Source: Lysobacteraceae bacterium
GTDB taxonomy: Bacteria > Pseudomonadota > Gammaproteobacteria > Nitrococcales > AK92
NCBI GenBank assembly: GCA_012523465.1
Contig: JAAYIK010000028.1
Location: forward strand, 62,001 to 126,000
Length of the DNA stretch: 64,000 bases
Direction of reading: 5' to 3'
A program made the position numbers and the translations under genes. Numbering within the stretch: the stretch's first letter is position 1; every line of letters begins with the position of its first letter. The notes beneath the pieces were generated by a model. It had not been told where the DNA came from, did not search any database, and saw only the letters and a program-made list of their open reading frames with translations. Positions 22,372 to 29,959 of this stretch are shown piece after piece.

Positions 22372-22976
22372 CGGAACTGCGCCCAGATCTCGCCATCATC
22401 AGCGAATGGATAGAGCCGGGTTCGCGAGTCCTGGACCTGGGCTGCGGTGACGGCACGCTACTGAAGTATCTGCAGGAGCATCGCAATGTCACTGGCTACG
22501 GCCTGGAAATCGACCCGGACAACGTCCTCGCCTGCATCAAGAACAACGTCGACGTCATCCAGACCGACCTGGATGCAGGTCTGAGCGACTTTGACGAAGA
22601 CTCATTCGACTACGTAGTCATGACCCACACTTTGCAGGCGGTCAGCTATCCGCACCGCCTGGTCAAGGAAATGCTGCGGATCGGCCGCCAGGGCATTGTC
22701 ACCTTCCCCAATTTCGGCCACTGGCGGGTGCGCACGCAACTGCTGCTGAAGGGGCGGATGCCGGTCAGCAACGCGCTGCCGCATGCCTGGTACGACACGC
22801 CCAACATTCGCCTCTGCACCGTGAAGGACTTCGAGGAGCTGTGTAAAACGCAGGGCATCCGCATCCTCGAGCGGCAGGTGCTGGATCATACCCACCGCCA
22901 GCGTGCGCTGGCCCGGTTGCTGCCCAACCTGCTGGGCGAGATCGCTATGTACCGCTTCGAGAACGGCTCGCGATGA
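22368..22976 (+). CDS. metW: MetW, methionine biosynthesis methyltransferase-like protein
   Basis: Class I SAM methyltransferase fold of 202 residues, always paired with MetX in proteobacteria and needed for full homoserine acyltransferase activity. The SAM loop is [27 protein letters not shown] follows, and [21 protein letters not shown] is the MetW-specific block. It overlaps metX and the next gene by ATGA on both sides, so all three should be co-translated. Confidence 0.95.
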
Positions 22977-23398
22977 CGCGCTGGCTGCTGCTTCTGGCGT
23001 TGCTGCTATCAAGCGGCCGGGCGCTGGCGCAGCAGGGACAGCACGCCGCCGGCGACTACACGGTGCACTACAATGCCCTGCCGTCGGCGTTCCTGACGCC
23101 CGAGATCGCCCGCCAGTACGGCGTGCTGCGCAGTCGGGTGCGTGGCGTGCTGGTGGTGTCGGTGCTGCGCCAGGGCTCACCGGTACGGGTCCGCGTGGAG
23201 GCGCAAGCCGGCGCCCCCGGCGAGCCGCTGCAGCCACTGGAGCTGCGCCTGGTGGAGACCAACGGCATGCCTTCTTACATTGGCAGCTTCGCCATCGCTT
23301 CCGGCGAAAGCCGCCAATTCCGGCTGCGGGTGGAGCCGCCGGACGATGCGCCGATCCACATCGGTTTCACCCGCCAGTTCTTCGACGATCCCCCCTAA
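22973..23398 (+). CDS. DUF4426 periplasmic protein
   Basis: Predicted exported protein of 141 residues with a signal peptide (hydrophobic LLLLALLLSSGRALAQ, cleavage after about residue 19). The mature part reads GDYTVHYNALPSAFLTPEIA, then YGVLRSRVRGVLVVSVL and PIHIGFTRQFF. This matches the DUF4426 proteins that commonly follow metX-metW. Function unknown. Its last 32 bases overlap the end of btuF on the opposite strand. Confidence 0.88.
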   Translation: MTRWLLLLALLLSSGRALAQQGQHAAGDYTVHYNALPSAFLTPEIARQYGVLRSRVRGVLVVSVLRQGSPVRVRVEAQAGAPGEPLQPLELRLVETNGMPSYIGSFAIASGESRQFRLRVEPPDDAPIHIGFTRQFFDDPP

Positions 23399-24287
23399 CC
23401 TGGCGCTGCCGTTTCTGCCGCGCCTCCTCCAGCTGCTCGCACAACAGCTGTGCGCCGTCCAAAACCCGCGGTCCCTGGCGCTGGATGAGGTCGGCCGGCA
23501 CGAAGTAAAGGTTGTTCTCCCGCACCGCCGCCAGCTGCGGCCAGCGGCGCCAGTCGTACAGCCAAGCCGGCGGCTGTGGCCCCTGCTCGCTGGCGACGAT
23601 GACCTCGGGGTCGGCCACCAGCACCGCTTCCAGATTTACCTGCGGCGCCAGACTCGCCAAACCGGCGAAGACGTTCTCGCCGCCACACAACTCGATGATC
23701 TGGCTGATCATCTGCCGCCCACCGACGGTCATCAGCGGCGCGTGCCAGATCTGGTAGAACACCCGCAGCCGCGGCCTGCCGGCATGGCGTGCGGCAAGGC
23801 GCTCCAGACGTGCGCGGAAGGCAGCCGCAGCGGTAGCGGCGCTCTCTTCCGTGCCGCTCAACCGTCCGAACCGCTCCAGGGTGCGTGGGATGTCCTCCAG
23901 CCGACGCGGTTCCGAGACGAACACCGGCAGCCCCAGCGCCTGCAATCGCCTGACGGTGCGCGCGCCATTGCCGCTCTGCCAGACGATGACCAGATCCGGC
24001 TGCAGCGCCAGTAAGCGCTCGTAATCGATCACGTCGTGGTTGCCGATGCGCGGCAGCCGCAACGCTGCGGGCGGATGGTCGCTGTAGCTGCCGACCGCAA
24101 CCAGCCTGTCGCCGGCGCCGGCAGCGTACAGCAACTCGGTGACGTGAGGCGCCAGGCTGACGATGCGTTGCGCCGGCGCAGGCAGCGTCACCAGGCGACC
24201 GCTGTCATCACGCACGCTGATCTCGGCCGCTCCCACGGCGGGCTGCAATGTCAGAGCCAGCAGCAGGCAGGCGATCAGGATATGCAT
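23367..24287 (-). CDS. btuF: BtuF-like periplasmic cobalamin-binding protein
   Basis: Class III solute-binding protein of 306 residues, predicted to bind corrinoid in the periplasm. A signal peptide (MHILIACLLLALTLQPAVGA) precedes RIVSLAPHVTELLYAAGAGD, VGSYSDHPPAALRLPRIG and LLALQPDLVIVW, the typical BtuF N-terminal lobe. FYQIWHAPLMTVGGRQMISQ follows in the second lobe. ATG 24287 is used because the upstream GTG at 24296 adds nothing. It overlaps the preceding gene by 13 bases and is last in the corrinoid cluster. BtuF normally feeds BtuCD, but neither gene is in the window. Confidence 0.88.
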   Translation of the reverse strand: MHILIACLLLALTLQPAVGAAEISVRDDSGRLVTLPAPAQRIVSLAPHVTELLYAAGAGDRLVAVGSYSDHPPAALRLPRIGNHDVIDYERLLALQPDLVIVWQSGNGARTVRRLQALGLPVFVSEPRRLEDIPRTLERFGRLSGTEESAATAAAAFRARLERLAARHAGRPRLRVFYQIWHAPLMTVGGRQMISQIIELCGGENVFAGLASLAPQVNLEAVLVADPEVIVASEQGPQPPAWLYDWRRWPQLAAVRENNLYFVPADLIQRQGPRVLDGAQLLCEQLEEARQKRQRQVRGDRRRTGG

Positions 24288-25069
24288 TCGCTCCACCGTC
24301 GGATCACCGCATGAATCTGGCGCACGACGGCGGTGAGCGCCGCCGGCCCCGCCTGCAGGATGTGATCTGAGTCGATCTCATGCAGCTGGCCGGCGCGCAC
24401 CGCCACGATGCGCCCCCAACCGGGCCGGGCCGCGACCTGCTCGGGCCGAAATCGCTTGCCGCACCAGGAGCCGCTGATGATGTCGGGGTTGCGCCGCACC
24501 ACTTCCATGGGATCGGCGATGATCCGTTGCCGGGCCAGCGGCGCCCGGGCCAGCTCGGCAAAGCAGTTCTCACTGCCCGCCAGTTCGATCAACTCCGACA
24601 CCCAGCGTATGCTGCTGATAAGCGGCTCGTTCCATTCCTCGAAATACACCCGCGGCTGCCGACACAAGCTGACGGCCGCGGCGGCCAGCGCCCGCAGGCC
24701 GGCTTGCAGCTCGGCGATGAGACTCGCCGCCCGCTCGCTGGCGTTAACCATGGCACCCAGCATGCGGATCATGGCAAAGATCCCGTCCACCGAGCGGTGG
24801 TTGAACACGTGCACCGGCACCCCGCGGCGGATCAGCTCGGCGGCGATGTCGGCCTGGATGTCGGAGAACCCCAGCACCAGGTCCGGCTCCAGGGTCAGGA
24901 TGGCGTCGATGCGAGCACTGGCGAAGGCGGCGATCCTAGGCTTCTCCCGCCACGCCCGCGGCGGCCGTCGGGCGAAGCCCGAAATGCCGACGATGCGCTG
25001 CTGCTCGCCCAGCAGGTAGAGAGTTTCGACGGTCTCGGCCGAAAGACAATCGATGCGGCGCGAGCTCAT
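24275..25069 (-). CDS. BtuF-like cobalamin-binding protein without a signal peptide
   Basis: A 264-residue relative of BtuF that starts directly with the mature fold (MSSRRIDCLSAETVETLYLL) and so is predicted to be cytoplasmic. ARIDAILTLEPDLVLGFSD and PRVYFEEWNEPLISSIRWVS match the two lobes of the class III binding protein fold. The last domain includes RNPDIISGSWCGKRFRP. Its start overlaps the CbiA-like stop by four bases. No alternative upstream start restores a leader, since the upstream sequence belongs to the previous gene. Its role could be cytosolic corrinoid capture or hand-off; this is inference. Confidence 0.85.
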   Translation of the reverse strand: MSSRRIDCLSAETVETLYLLGEQQRIVGISGFARRPPRAWREKPRIAAFASARIDAILTLEPDLVLGFSDIQADIAAELIRRGVPVHVFNHRSVDGIFAMIRMLGAMVNASERAASLIAELQAGLRALAAAAVSLCRQPRVYFEEWNEPLISSIRWVSELIELAGSENCFAELARAPLARQRIIADPMEVVRRNPDIISGSWCGKRFRPEQVAARPGWGRIVAVRAGQLHEIDSDHILQAGPAALTAVVRQIHAVIRRWSECIS

Positions 25070-26367
25070 GGCAGTAGCAGCCTGGCGATGGCGGTTGGAT
25101 TGGACGGGAAGTAAAACTGGCTACAGGAGGCGGTGAGCCGACCGAGGCGGTAGACGGGCTCTCGTATCGGTCCGCCGTTGGGGCAACGGCCCAGGGCGAC
25201 TACAGGTGTCGCGCTGCGCACCGTGAGGCAGTGGTAGCTATTGCCGCGCAGCTCGCCTTCCGGCAGCGCCAGCTGCTGCGGACCGACGGCGCGCACCTGC
25301 TCTCCCACCGTAGCCTGTCCCGGCAGCACCTCCGCCAGCCGATGGCGATTACCGGCACGATCGGTCACCGACTCCAGCAGCAACAACATGCCTTCGCCTT
25401 CGGCTAGCAACGGCTGGCCGGCCTGGTGATGCGCGCGGATGGCGGCAAGCAGGCCGGAATTGGCAGCCAGCGCCGCCGCATGCCGCGCTATCCATCCACC
25501 CGGCAAATAAAGACTGTCGCAGTCCGGCAGCCGGTGGTCACGCAGCGGCGAGAACAGACGCAGCTCGGCGCCCATGCGCTGCAGCAATTCCAGATTGGCG
25601 GCATAGAGCTGCGCGAACGCCGCATCTCGGGCCACCGCGATCCGCACCCCGGCCAGCAGCGAAGCCGATGCGGACGCAGCCGTGACAGCAGGGAACGCAA
25701 CCGGCGGTGGCAGCTCCGCAATCGGCTGATCGGCCAGGACCCGCGCCAGTGCATCCAAGCGCCGCTTCAGGTCCGGCCAGGCCGCCGGGTCGGCGAGCTC
25801 CGCCGCGCTTGCTGGCAAGGCCAGGTCAGCCCCGCGCGGCAGGCTGGCCAGCAGCGGCGTCGCCGGCGTCAAACCGGCACTCAGCAGGCCGCGATGGTAT
25901 TCTCCCGCCACGCCGTTGGCCACCACCCCAGCAAAGGGCAGCTGCGGCCGGTAGCTGGCCAGGCCGTGGGCCAGAGCGGCAAAGGTCTGCGCCATGGCAG
26001 CGGCATCAACGACGACCGCCACTGGCATGCCGAACAATTCGGCCAAATCGGCGCTGCTGGGGCTGCCATCGAACAGCCCCATGACGCCTTCGAGCAGGAT
26101 CAAGTCCGCCTCGCCAGCGGCCTGATGCAAAAGCTGCCGACAGTGCGCCTCCCCGCCCAAAAACAGGTCGAGCTGCCGGCAGGGCGTGCCAGCCGCGACC
26201 GACAGCAGCATAGGATCCTCGAAGTCGGCACCAGCCTTAAAGACCCGCACCCGCCGTCCCAGCAGGCGGTGCAGCCTAGCCAGCGCCGCCGTGATCGTCG
26301 TCTTGCCCTGGCCGGAAGCCGACGCTCCGATCAGCAGCGCCGGGCAGTGTCGTACCGGCTCAACCAT
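25066..26367 (-). CDS. CbiA/CobB-like cobyrinate amidase homologue lacking the glutaminase cysteine
   Basis: A 433-residue two-domain protein. The N-terminal half is a dethiobiotin synthetase-like ATPase: P-loop GASASGQGKTTIT (14-26), KAGADFEDPMLL where CbiA usually has KxGPDxIDP, and LEGVMGLFDG. The C-terminal half is a glutamine amidotransferase fold, LYLPGGWIARHAAALAAN. Active CbiA has AECGG at the nucleophile elbow; here the codons read Ala-Glu-Gly-Glu-Gly, so the catalytic cysteine is missing. The late RGNSYHCL retains a histidine. No other corrin ring genes are nearby. It may be a specialised amidase that uses free ammonia, or a non-catalytic ATP-binding protein. Confidence 0.85.
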   Translation of the reverse strand: MVEPVRHCPALLIGASASGQGKTTITAALARLHRLLGRRVRVFKAGADFEDPMLLSVAAGTPCRQLDLFLGGEAHCRQLLHQAAGEADLILLEGVMGLFDGSPSSADLAELFGMPVAVVVDAAAMAQTFAALAHGLASYRPQLPFAGVVANGVAGEYHRGLLSAGLTPATPLLASLPRGADLALPASAAELADPAAWPDLKRRLDALARVLADQPIAELPPPVAFPAVTAASASASLLAGVRIAVARDAAFAQLYAANLELLQRMGAELRLFSPLRDHRLPDCDSLYLPGGWIARHAAALAANSGLLAAIRAHHQAGQPLLAEGEGMLLLLESVTDRAGNRHRLAEVLPGQATVGEQVRAVGPQQLALPEGELRGNSYHCLTVRSATPVVALGRCPNGGPIREPVYRLGRLTASCSQFYFPSNPTAIARLLLP

Positions 26368-26926
26368 TGGCTCGCGCCGGATGCGCTGCCGTCAGCGCCA
26401 GCAGCACATACAGTGCCACGGCCAACCCCAACCAGAGCAACGTGCCCTGCAGGTAACCCGGCAGGTAGTTGGCAACCCGCAGGGCATACTCGGCGGCGCT
26501 CATCGCCTCGAAATAGCCGGCGAAGAGGTAAAAGCCGGCATTGGAGATGGCGAACGCCGCCAGAGTCGCTCCCACCGCAGCGGCAGCAAACGGCAGCAGG
26601 CCGCGCCAGGCCGGCGCATGCCGCCGGCCATACCAGCGCCCGGCCCACCAGGCCACAGCGTAGGCAGCCGCCAGGAACGGGTAAGCCGGCGTGATGCACC
26701 AGCCGCTGACGCCGCCCACCGTGGTGGCGAGCAAGTCGATTCCCGCGGCCTCGATCAGCAGCAGCGGGAACCCCCAGGCTGGCAGGCAGCAGCCGGCCAG
26801 CATGAACGCAGCAAGAGAAGCATCCGGAAGGCCCATCGCCGAGCTGAAATGCCCGCTGCGAGTCAGCGCCATGAGGGCGGCCAAGGCAAAGCCGACGAGC
26901 CAGTCACGCACGCTGTTGTCGTTCAC
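26360..26926 (-). CDS. Small membrane protein of the corrinoid cluster, S-component-like
   Basis: Integral membrane protein of 188 residues with about five or six hydrophobic helices (roughly 9-27, 40-62, 68-95, 108-135 and 150-180). It has charged loops at GRWYGRRHAPAW and a Tyr/Phe-rich segment NAGFYLFAGYFEAMS. Size and topology resemble ECF transporter S components, and similar proteins occur near btuB in other proteobacteria. The family call is by architecture, not by a diagnostic motif. It starts at GTG 26926 with AAGGGAG 7 bases upstream, 12 bases after btuB, and overlaps the CbiA-like gene by 8 bases. Confidence 0.75.
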   Translation of the reverse strand: MNDNSVRDWLVGFALAALMALTRSGHFSSAMGLPDASLAAFMLAGCCLPAWGFPLLLIEAAGIDLLATTVGGVSGWCITPAYPFLAAAYAVAWWAGRWYGRRHAPAWRGLLPFAAAAVGATLAAFAISNAGFYLFAGYFEAMSAAEYALRVANYLPGYLQGTLLWLGLAVALYVLLALTAAHPARANG

Positions 26927-26938
26927 GGCCTTGCTCCC

Positions 26939-28750
26939 TTACCGCGCCACCGGCGCATAATGCAGACTGACGAACCAGGTGCGACCGGGCTGGTTGTAAC
27001 CGGCCGCGGTTTCGTAGTCCTTGTCGAGCACGTTGCCGACCATCGCACGGAGGCTCCAATCCCGGTTGAAGGCATAGCTGGCGCGCAGGTCCAGCAAGGC
27101 GTAGCCGCCCAACCGGACGTTGTTTTCAGGATCGTCATAGCGATGACTTTCAGCGAAAACGCTGCCGCCCACGCTGAAACGGCCAAATGTGCGATCAAGG
27201 TCGATCCGGCCTGACTGGCGTGACCGGCGCGGCAACAGATTGCCGCGGTTATCGCCGTAGCGGTTTTCCGGGTCGAGCAGCGTCAAGCTGAGATTGGCCT
27301 GCCAGCCTAGCACCCGGGTCTCCAGGGTCGCTTCCGCGCCCCTGATGCGAGTCTCGGCAAGGTTGTACAAATTCCACGACGCATCAGGAACGATAAGGTT
27401 GTCGATCTTGGTCTGGAACAGGCTAAACGACCAGGCAAACGCCGCGTTCCTGCCCTGGATCCCAAGCTCAACGCTGCGCGACTCTTCTGGTTCAAGATTC
27501 AGGTTGCCGCCCCATGGGACATGCAAATCCTGAAGGGTCGGAGCATTGAACCCCGTCCCGTAGGAAGCAAACAGGCTCGCGGTCGGTGTCCACTGATAGC
27601 CCCAGGCCAGGCTCCCCGTCGTATGCCCTCCGAACTGTTCATTGTCATCATGCCGCACAGCGAGCTGCAGGCTATGGCTGCCGAAACCTCCCTGGTATTC
27701 GATAAAGCCCGCCTTGTTGTCGCGCTCTGCAACCGTAAAGGCCATATCGCCTTCGGCCTTGTCGCGCTGATAGTCGACACCGGCGACGACCAGATGGTCA
27801 GCGGCCAGGACCAATTCGTTTTGCCAGCTCAGCGTATAGCGTGACGCTGCCAAATCCTGCCCAGGCGCACGGTGCCCATCTTGAAAATACTCGCGCTCGC
27901 TGCGCGCATTACCGACAGCGAGGCTGGTGCGCCAGTGAGCAAGTGGAGCCAAAGAGAGCCGTGCCCCCACGGTCTGTTCGACGAAATCATTCTGGTTGGC
28001 GTAAGGTCCCATGCCGTCGTAGTCGTTGCGACCCTCGGCCCGCAAGATGCTGATTTCCGCCTCGCCGGTCTGTCCGAATCGGCTACCCAGCCGCCCGAGC
28101 ACGGAAGTGCTGCGATAGCCATCATCGTCAGGCTCGGACTGATCCCTCCAAGCATCAAAACCATCGCTCTCAAGATGGCTTAGGCTCAGATTGAACCAGC
28201 TCCGTTCGCCGCCCCCAGCGAGGCCGGCATGGCTTTTGTGAGTACCGTCGCTGCCGTAGCCGGCGCTGCCATAGAGCCGCGGCTTGCCGCCGCCCTTGCG
28301 GGTGAAGATCTGGATCACGCCGCCGATGGCCTCCGAACCGTACAGGCTGGAGCGCGGACCACGGACTATCTCGATGCGTTCGACCTGATCGATGGGCAAA
28401 TCCTGCCAGGAAATTGAACCGGCCGTCGGGTCACCTACCTTGATGCCGTCGATCAGCACCAGCGTGTGATCCGACTCCGAACCGCGGAGAAACAACGCGC
28501 TACGCTTGCCCAACCCGCCACTGTTGTAAAGATGCAGGCCCGGCGTACCACGCAACACTTCAAGCACGGATTGCGGCTGCTGCCGCTCGATGTCCTCGCG
28601 CGTGATCACGGTCACCGCTGCTAGCGCTTCGTCCACCATCTGCGCGGTTCGGCTGGCGGTGACGACAATAGGAGGAAGCGATAGTTCTTGCGCAGCGGCA
28701 AGGGATGGCAACGCAACCGCAACGGCGGTCGCAAGCAGACGTGTTTTCAT
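26939..28750 (-). CDS. btuB: BtuB-like TonB-dependent corrinoid receptor
   Basis: Outer membrane beta barrel of 603 residues. A signal peptide (about 20 residues, ending AAA) is followed by the TonB box region LPPIVVTASRTAQM, a plug domain (VLEVLRGTPGLHLYNSGGLG, ERIEIVRGPRSSLYGSEAIG) and a barrel that ends in an aromatic C-terminal strand. Length and motifs match BtuB. It is preceded by a cobalamin riboswitch, and the start codon has AGGAG 6 bases upstream, which can be sequestered. It is the first gene of a five-gene cluster and would need TonB energy. Confidence 0.94.
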   Translation of the reverse strand: MKTRLLATAVAVALPSLAAAQELSLPPIVVTASRTAQMVDEALAAVTVITREDIERQQPQSVLEVLRGTPGLHLYNSGGLGKRSALFLRGSESDHTLVLIDGIKVGDPTAGSISWQDLPIDQVERIEIVRGPRSSLYGSEAIGGVIQIFTRKGGGKPRLYGSAGYGSDGTHKSHAGLAGGGERSWFNLSLSHLESDGFDAWRDQSEPDDDGYRSTSVLGRLGSRFGQTGEAEISILRAEGRNDYDGMGPYANQNDFVEQTVGARLSLAPLAHWRTSLAVGNARSEREYFQDGHRAPGQDLAASRYTLSWQNELVLAADHLVVAGVDYQRDKAEGDMAFTVAERDNKAGFIEYQGGFGSHSLQLAVRHDDNEQFGGHTTGSLAWGYQWTPTASLFASYGTGFNAPTLQDLHVPWGGNLNLEPEESRSVELGIQGRNAAFAWSFSLFQTKIDNLIVPDASWNLYNLAETRIRGAEATLETRVLGWQANLSLTLLDPENRYGDNRGNLLPRRSRQSGRIDLDRTFGRFSVGGSVFAESHRYDDPENNVRLGGYALLDLRASYAFNRDWSLRAMVGNVLDKDYETAAGYNQPGRTWFVSLHYAPVAR

Positions 28751-28756
28751 GGAATT

Positions 28757-28799
28757 CTCCTGTTACGCACACCCGCGATCGCCAGTGCGCGGACAGGAG
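28757..28799 (-). promoter_or_regulatory. Predicted hairpin that sequesters the btuB ribosome binding site
   Basis: On the minus strand CTCCTGT (28799-28793) is perfectly complementary to ACAGGAG (28763-28757), which contains the btuB Shine-Dalgarno sequence. Between them GCGCAC can pair with GTGTGC, giving a two-part stem of 7 and 6 pairs. There is no run of T after it, so it looks like a translational and not a transcriptional off switch. It sits just downstream of the cobalamin-binding element. Folding was judged by eye. Confidence 0.65.
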
Positions 28800-28874
28800 C
28801 AAGGGGAAAGGAAGGTTGGAGAACCGTCCGCCCGTCGCTGCCCTCCGCAGCACTGGACCCTGGAGCACGACAGC

Positions 28875-29061
28875 TCCAATTCCAGGCCGGTCTCCGGGCT
28901 CACGAGCGGGACTCCTTCCCCGGACCTGCGCCTTCCCATGCCATGCGGCACAGTGGCATCGTGCAGGCCCTTGACTCGTCTACCGTTGCGGGGGCAGCGC
29001 CGGCTTTTGACCGGCTTCCCGTTTACATCCCGGACTTAGTCCGGGAACCTGGAACGGCGAA
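28875..29061 (-). ncRNA. Cobalamin riboswitch
   Basis: Leader of btuB on the minus strand. Conserved blocks are present in order: the GCCGGCGCTGCCCCCGCAACGG core (28981-29004), GCCACTG (28957-28951) and the B12 box GAGCCCGGAGACCGGCCTGG (28901-28882). The 5' hairpin CCCGGACTAAGTCCGGG precedes GGGAAGCCGGTC. The element fits the adenosylcobalamin/cobalamin family, but whether it prefers AdoCbl or MeCbl is not decided here. A short GGAGC...GCTCC stem (28861-28878) follows. The exact boundaries are approximate. Confidence 0.93.
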
Positions 29062-29121
29062 AACGATAGTGACAGGCGGGAATCTTGTCAACCAGAAATG
29101 ACGAATGCCAGCGCCAGCAGG

Positions 29122-29811
29122 CTAGCTTTCGCGGAAGTACACCAAGTCCCAGACACCATGCCCCAGCGCCCGGCCGCGGCGCTCGAACTTGGTCTCCGGT
29201 CGCGACTCGACGTACCCGGCGGCCTCCTCCGCGCTGGCGGGGCGGAAGCCGAGCGCGCCCGCCATCACCGCGCGCATGTGCTCGGCATAGTCTTCCCAGT
29301 CAGTAGCCATATGTAGGAAACCGCCGATCTGCAGCTTGCCGCGGATGACCTGCGCCCACTCCGGCTGCACCAGGCGACGCTTGTGATGGCGCTTCTTGGG
29401 CCACGGGTCGGGGAAAAACAGCTGGACGCCGCGCAGGGATTGGTCCGGCAGCCGCCCCAGCAGCAGCTGAGCGTCCTCGCAGACGACCCGCACGTTGTCG
29501 ATGCCGTGCTGCTCCAGCAGCATGAGCAGGCGGCCGACGCCGGGACGGTGCACCTCGACGCCGAGATAGCCCAGCTGGGGGCTGGCCTGCGCCATTTGTG
29601 CTAGACTCTCACCGTTGCCAAAACCGATCTCCAGCACGACCGGGCGCTGACCGAACAGCGCCGCAAAGTCGAGCGTCCCTTTTTCCGGCACGCCATAGCG
29701 GGGCAACAACTCCTGCAGAGCCCGCTGCTGAGCCGGAGTCAAGCGACCCTCGCGCAGCACGAAGCTGCGGATCCGGCGCAAGTAGGGAGAAACGGAAGAA
29801 CGTGCTGTCAC
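29122..29811 (-). CDS. trmB: tRNA (guanine-N7-)-methyltransferase TrmB
   Basis: Methylates G46 of tRNA using SAM. Signatures are LRRIRSFVLREGRLTPAQQ, VVLEIGFGNGESLAQMA, YLGVEVHRPGVGRLL, VQLFFPDPWPKKRHHKRRL, HMATDWEDYAEHM and TKFERRGRALGHGVWDL. I prefer the GTG at 29811 (229 residues, with AGGAG 10 bases upstream), which puts LRRIRSF about where it lies in E. coli TrmB. The frame is open to 29886 and a longer start is possible. It is upstream of the btuB riboswitch on the same strand, with 60 bases between. Confidence 0.95.
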   Translation of the reverse strand: MTARSSVSPYLRRIRSFVLREGRLTPAQQRALQELLPRYGVPEKGTLDFAALFGQRPVVLEIGFGNGESLAQMAQASPQLGYLGVEVHRPGVGRLLMLLEQHGIDNVRVVCEDAQLLLGRLPDQSLRGVQLFFPDPWPKKRHHKRRLVQPEWAQVIRGKLQIGGFLHMATDWEDYAEHMRAVMAGALGFRPASAEEAAGYVESRPETKFERRGRALGHGVWDLVYFRES

Positions 29812-29959
29812 GGCTGCAAGACTCCTGAAGGGGCGCCAAGGATGATGCAAGTGCCGGTCCGATTCAAGCTGCCAGCCGGCCATCACGCGTCCGTCGCTCC
29901 GACGGAACCTTGATTTTATCTGTGGTCAAAGGCATGTGTGCATCTGCGGAGCAACGGCT

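Follow-up and report, generated by a model that had tools for sequence, protein, structure and literature searches.

A probable B12 uptake operon with BtuM in place of BtuCD and a CbiA homologue that has lost its glutaminase residues

The window, a stretch of 64,000 nucleotides from a Lysobacteraceae bacterium, contains five genes behind one cobalamin riboswitch. We are fairly confident that these genes constitute a riboswitch-controlled operon for B12 salvage and uptake in which BtuM stands in for BtuCD, and in which a CbiA/CobB homologue and a cytosolic BtuF-like protein (cBtuF) are survivors of a cobalamin operon. BtuM, this type of operon and the loss of cobalamin synthesis are already known kinds. 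A replacement of BtuCD by BtuM within one genus, with BtuF retained, was not found in the open-licence literature searched.

The cobalamin riboswitch aptamer RF00174 (28868-29067, minus strand) is matched over its full length, model positions 1-189, and scores 121.1 bits (E 7.4e-30), above the gathering threshold of 31.5. Only 54 bases separate it from the stop codon of trmB (29122-29886, minus strand; PF02390 and tblastn), which we use as synteny anchor. Between this stop and the aptamer a consensus scan gives a candidate sigma-70-like promoter, TTGACA-17-TATCGT (29063-29091, minus strand), the one such site found in the region compared with about 0.9 expected by chance. The five open reading frames follow on the same strand: btuB (26939-28750), a TonB-dependent B12 receptor by the equivalog TIGR01779 (616 bits, cut-off 599.7); btuM (26360-26926), a solitary S-component-like B12 transporter; the cbiA/cobB homologue (25066-26367; NF002204 with 319 bits, cut-off 254, together with PF07685 and PF01656); cBtuF without signal peptide (24275-25069; PF01497, 132 bits); and btuF (23367-24296), a periplasmic B12-binding protein with a signal peptide and the N-terminus MHILIACLLLALTLQPAVGAAE. 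The sequence-only reading had described one riboswitch followed by five tightly packed genes and had named their families, and the profile and phmmer matches agree with it on both counts. btuB and btuM are 12 bp apart and the other three junctions overlap by 4-22 bp, the start of cBtuF overlapping the stop codon of cbiA. Since adjacent genes overlap or lie no more than 12 bases apart, a single transcript is likely.

The secreted BtuF is most similar to vitamin B12-binding proteins, with 5ysc at phmmer 4e-60 and E. coli BtuF at about 1e-37; against PRK03379 it scores 189 bits, under the cut-off of 234. The cBtuF gene occurs in at least 12 other cob operons or operon remnants and is leaderless in those that were read as well. 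The last 74 residues of BtuB match G001, a genome of the same genus, at 61%, and several BtuM-bearing genomes come nearly equal, which fits an inherited btuB about as well as one that arrived with btuM. At the far end, btuF and a convergent DUF4426 gene (22973-23398, plus strand) share 32 bases at their 3' ends (23367-23398), with no clear terminator between them.

The small membrane protein can be assigned, on its sequence and its predicted model, to the known BtuM family. Its 188 residues match no Pfam or NCBIfam profile, agree with the family size of about 22 kDa, and align by phmmer to the solved BtuM 8c7p at 1e-26. The predicted model has six helices (pLDDT 83) and superimposes on 8c7p and 8ovv, deposited as 'Tagless BtuM in complex with cyanocobalamin' and with hydroxycobalamin, with TM scores of 0.78-0.83 at 38% identity; BioY and RibU score lower. 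Cys77 is invariant in 65/65 homologues and aligns with the cobalt-ligand cysteine of the solved protein, and Asp64 and Tyr82 are likewise found in all 65. The BtuM tree puts the window copy in a group of 8 rows whose branching is poorly resolved and which holds no close relative of it. BtuM was reportedly first predicted in a comparative-genomics paper of 2003. Published work shows that BtuM_Td rescues B12-dependent growth of E. coli without btuF and btuC, that its Cys80 is required and that an ECF module is not needed (PMC6072759). The fold is that of ECF S-components, and the authors propose facilitated diffusion combined with metabolic trapping by BtuR (PMC6072759). The earlier suggestion that an S-component-like protein takes the place of BtuC is thus right in outline, since sequence, conserved residues and predicted fold identify this protein as BtuM.

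Gene order locates the exchange. Relatives with btuCD have the order trmB-btuCD-(riboswitch)-btuB...cbiA. In the window, trmB is followed directly by the riboswitch, btuCD is missing, and btuM separates btuB from cbiA. A genome of the same family (G002) reads trmB-btuC-btuD-riboswitch-btuB-cobN-btuR-cbiA-cBtuF-cbiB-cobC-btuF-cobQ, and one of the same order (G005) has trmB-btuC-btuD, then riboswitch-btuB with cbiA immediately after btuB. In G001, btuB stands directly before the cbiA homologue, followed by cBtuF and btuF (L167), and btuC-btuD lies beside trmB (L175) on a contig other than that of btuB. G001 is 78% complete, and its btuB-cbiA junction is sequenced and contains no btuM. G001, G002, a further genome of the family (G003) and five other members of the order gave no BtuM match. 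Because the genome of the same genus keeps btuCD and shows no gene between btuB and cbiA, we infer that BtuM replaced BtuCD recently. The comparison of gene order, which the sequence-only reading had proposed as a check, thus resolves into loss of btuCD and gain of btuM at one locus relative to a genome of the same genus.

The common proteobacterial operon order is btuB-btuM-btuR-cbiA-bluB-cBtuF-cbiB-cobC-cobQ-cobU-cobT-cobS. Judged by gene content and order, the window set is for the most part the remains of this widespread cobalamin operon and no novel assembly. The simplest history is that the synthesis genes were lost in the genus or earlier, and that btuM was then gained and btuCD lost in the window lineage. 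Among the other loci collected, CbiA, cBtuF and BtuF lie side by side in G003 (L169, contig C249), a genome in which BtuR and CobQ were undetected. Two btuM genes occur in or near one cobalamin operon at L103, L134, L050, L053 and L064, as a tandem pair in L103 (Nitrosomonas) and L134 (Lysobacter soli). At L132 (Stutzerimonas stutzeri 95A6) btuM and btuCD share a locus, so that both importers can occur side by side.

The sequence-only reading had called the CbiA homologue a CbiA-like ATPase; the family holds by NF002204, while the loss of the glutaminase Cys and His had escaped that reading. CobB/CobQ-type glutaminases retain the catalytic Cys and His (PMC5871853). The window protein carries C324G, H376N and H417Q; AECGGM has become AEGEGM, SYxHxYF has become SCSQFYF, and GWIAR stands in place of the conserved GYPEL. 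Its G001 counterpart (70% identity) carries the same three substitutions, with AEGGGL, SSAQLYF and GQLEL at the motif sites; the three substitutions are therefore older than the divergence of the two species. In contrast, the glutaminase Cys is kept in 80/80 named relatives (79 by motif, L143 as AECGGF), which were gathered with scan patterns that left out the Cys motif. In G003 the contig starts inside cbiA, and both His417 and His376 are kept in the sequenced part. The synthetase domain (PF01656) is present, with its P-loop ASGQGKTT, the acidic residues of the GxDFxDP motif and EGVMGLFDG retained. In the window copy, a leucine within the conserved KTGPDFLDP site is replaced by glutamate, and the RHLG motif (187-190) is lost. 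No report of a CbiA with a dead glutaminase was found in the open-licence papers searched.

The frame of this protein shows constraint. It is open in both members of the genus, with 0 stops where, for a dS of about 0.8 (Nei-Gojobori), about 9 per branch would be expected under neutrality. pN/pS is 0.35 for the synthetase domain and 0.48 for the glutaminase domain, next to 0.41 for BtuF and 0.31 for trmB. Open frames and pN/pS together point to a protein kept for something besides glutamine-dependent amidation. A plain pseudogene is rejected, as there are no stops and pN/pS is below 1. Lineage-specific amino-acid changes, counted between window and G001 on parsimony-like sites with few outgroups, are skewed towards the window in CbiA (33:12, p 0.002) and cBtuF (32:7, p 7e-5) and balanced in BtuF (14:8) and trmB (20:14). 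The two cytosolic proteins thus sped up in step in the lineage where BtuM was acquired. Their joint acceleration may reflect a shared new role or a shared relaxed constraint, and the faster change of the window copies compared with those of G001 fits relaxed selection as well as it fits a new role.

Our best guess, held with low confidence, is that CbiA and cBtuF act as a cytosolic pair that binds or handles corrinoids, and not as biosynthetic enzymes. A more specific version, in which CbiA is a corrinoid-handling ATPase or chaperone that traps imported B12 together with cBtuF and so replaces the btuR missing beside btuM, we regard as unlikely. The main rival to a handling pair is that CbiA and cBtuF no longer have a function and are slowly decaying, with only BtuB, BtuM and perhaps BtuF of importance. 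This is doubtful but has to be taken seriously. Both proteins have sped up on the window branch alone, otherwise invariant CbiA positions are lost more often in the window (21/101, including RHLG) than in G001 (10/101), and the pathway genes tested (CobQ, BtuR and CbiB) are gone. Against decay stand the frames, open in both species in spite of 5-10 stops expected per branch under neutrality, pN/pS well under 1 in both domains, and the adjacency of CbiA, cBtuF and BtuF in the window's genome, G001 and G003, all of them without BtuR and CobQ matches.

Ammonia can be used by CbiA/CobB-type synthetases. It is conceivable, if quite improbable, that the CbiA homologue still amidates a corrinoid with free ammonia and that the unit thereby remodels imported corrinoids. 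The retained P-loop, acidic residues and EGVMGLFDG would allow this, but CobQ, CbiB or BtuR are not there to take the product further, and the window copy has lost RHLG and carries the leucine-to-glutamate change in the KTGPDFLDP site. Remodelling, as proposed from the sequence alone, is thus not supported: CbiA is without the catalytic residues of its glutaminase, and of the further genes for amidation and loop assembly, those tested (CobQ, BtuR, CbiB) are absent.

These absences refer to the genome of the window (G000; 3.0 Mb, estimated 100% complete). Whole-genome searches found no BtuR and no CbiB above cut-off, and no GATase_3 protein besides the window CbiA, hence no CobQ; these are the three corrin-pathway proteins that the whole-genome searches covered. 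The same genome holds only one FecCD permease, on contig C35. It lies in a cassette (C35 1-4552, L005) with a binding protein, an ATPase, a methyltransferase and a protein with two TOBE domains, and no riboswitch was found at this cassette. Among solved structures the permease matches HI1471 best (E 2e-58, compared with 6e-38 for BtuC), the MolB component of the molybdate importer MolBC-A (PMC4031551). From the likeness to HI1471, its own binding protein and the two-TOBE protein, the cassette is most likely a MolBC-A-like molybdate or tungstate importer. That it is instead the true B12 importer and uses the BtuF of the window operon is very improbable. Its permease reaches 250 bits with the archaeal BtuC model, as many as G001 BtuC, but stays under the cut-off of 461, and the better match to HI1471, the accompanying proteins and the missing riboswitch all speak for another substrate; as a hidden BtuCD we reject it. 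General BtuC models score this cassette like true BtuC, and it is easily misannotated. The absence of btuC and btuD noted from the sequence is upheld, since the sole FecCD gene is MolB-like and the stretch from trmB to the riboswitch has no btuCD.

The earlier proposal that an outside ATPase energises the small membrane protein has its appeal in the S-component fold of BtuM (PMC6072759), but is scarcely credible and is rejected here: EcfT (PF02361), the module component that the whole-genome profile search covered, was not found, and published BtuM functions in E. coli, which itself has no ECF module (PMC6072759).

The genome has uses for B12. It contains a frame of 1259 residues with a B12-binding domain, likely MetH, the class II ribonucleotide reductase NrdJ, and a PduO-type adenosyltransferase. 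A second cobalamin riboswitch (C22:3645-3785, L006) precedes nrdAB, the class I ribonucleotide reductase, and is adjoined by a metE-like gene and a LysR regulator. Together with NrdJ, this looks like B12-dependent switching between reductase types.

On this reading the host would be a B12-requiring bacterium without the corrin-pathway genes tested. BtuB would carry cobalamin across the outer membrane and BtuF would capture it in the periplasm and presumably hand it to BtuM. BtuM, acquired in the window lineage where it would have taken over from BtuCD, is expected to let base-off cobalamin pass the inner membrane with Cys77 on cobalt and no ABC or ECF motor. Direction could come from trapping in the cytosol through adenosylation by PduO and binding to MetH and NrdJ, as family knowledge and the published proposal (PMC6072759) suggest. 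CbiA would have lost the use of glutamine and is nevertheless kept intact in both species of the genus. Of the import and remodelling unit first proposed, import is thus kept, through BtuM as deduced from the genes, and remodelling is not.

The two species of the genus form a natural replacement pair, with a common btuB-cbiA-cBtuF-btuF block, BtuCD in one and BtuM in the other. This pair offers independent genomic support for BtuM as a stand-alone inner-membrane B12 importer and opens the question whether BtuF can work with BtuM. A CbiA kept by selection after loss of its glutaminase suggests a function, so far undescribed, in cells that depend on salvage alone for B12.

Set beside the proteobacterial cobalamin operon (e.g. 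L077, L123), the remaining window genes match in order and family, but btuR, bluB, cbiB, cobC, cobQ, cobU, cobT and cobS are missing from the cluster. With CbiA/CobB a,c-diamide synthases, the CbiA homologue shares the two-domain architecture, the P-loop synthetase domain and a score above the family cut-off, and differs from them by loss of the glutaminase Cys, His and YPEL residues. BtuM of Thiobacillus denitrificans (PMC6072759) and the solved 8c7p/8ovv belong to the same family as window BtuM and have the same fold, the same cobalt-ligand Cys and shared pocket residues, for which the window equivalents are Asp64, Tyr82 and Arg150. In both organisms the genome has no ECF module and the gene adjoins btuB. 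Unlike in T. denitrificans, btuM of the window abuts a cbiA with a dead glutaminase in a genome without btuR, and BtuF is retained in the operon. With E. coli BtuB-BtuCDF uptake, finally, the window operon has BtuB, BtuF and a B12-regulated leader in common, but in place of the absent BtuC and BtuD it carries BtuM.
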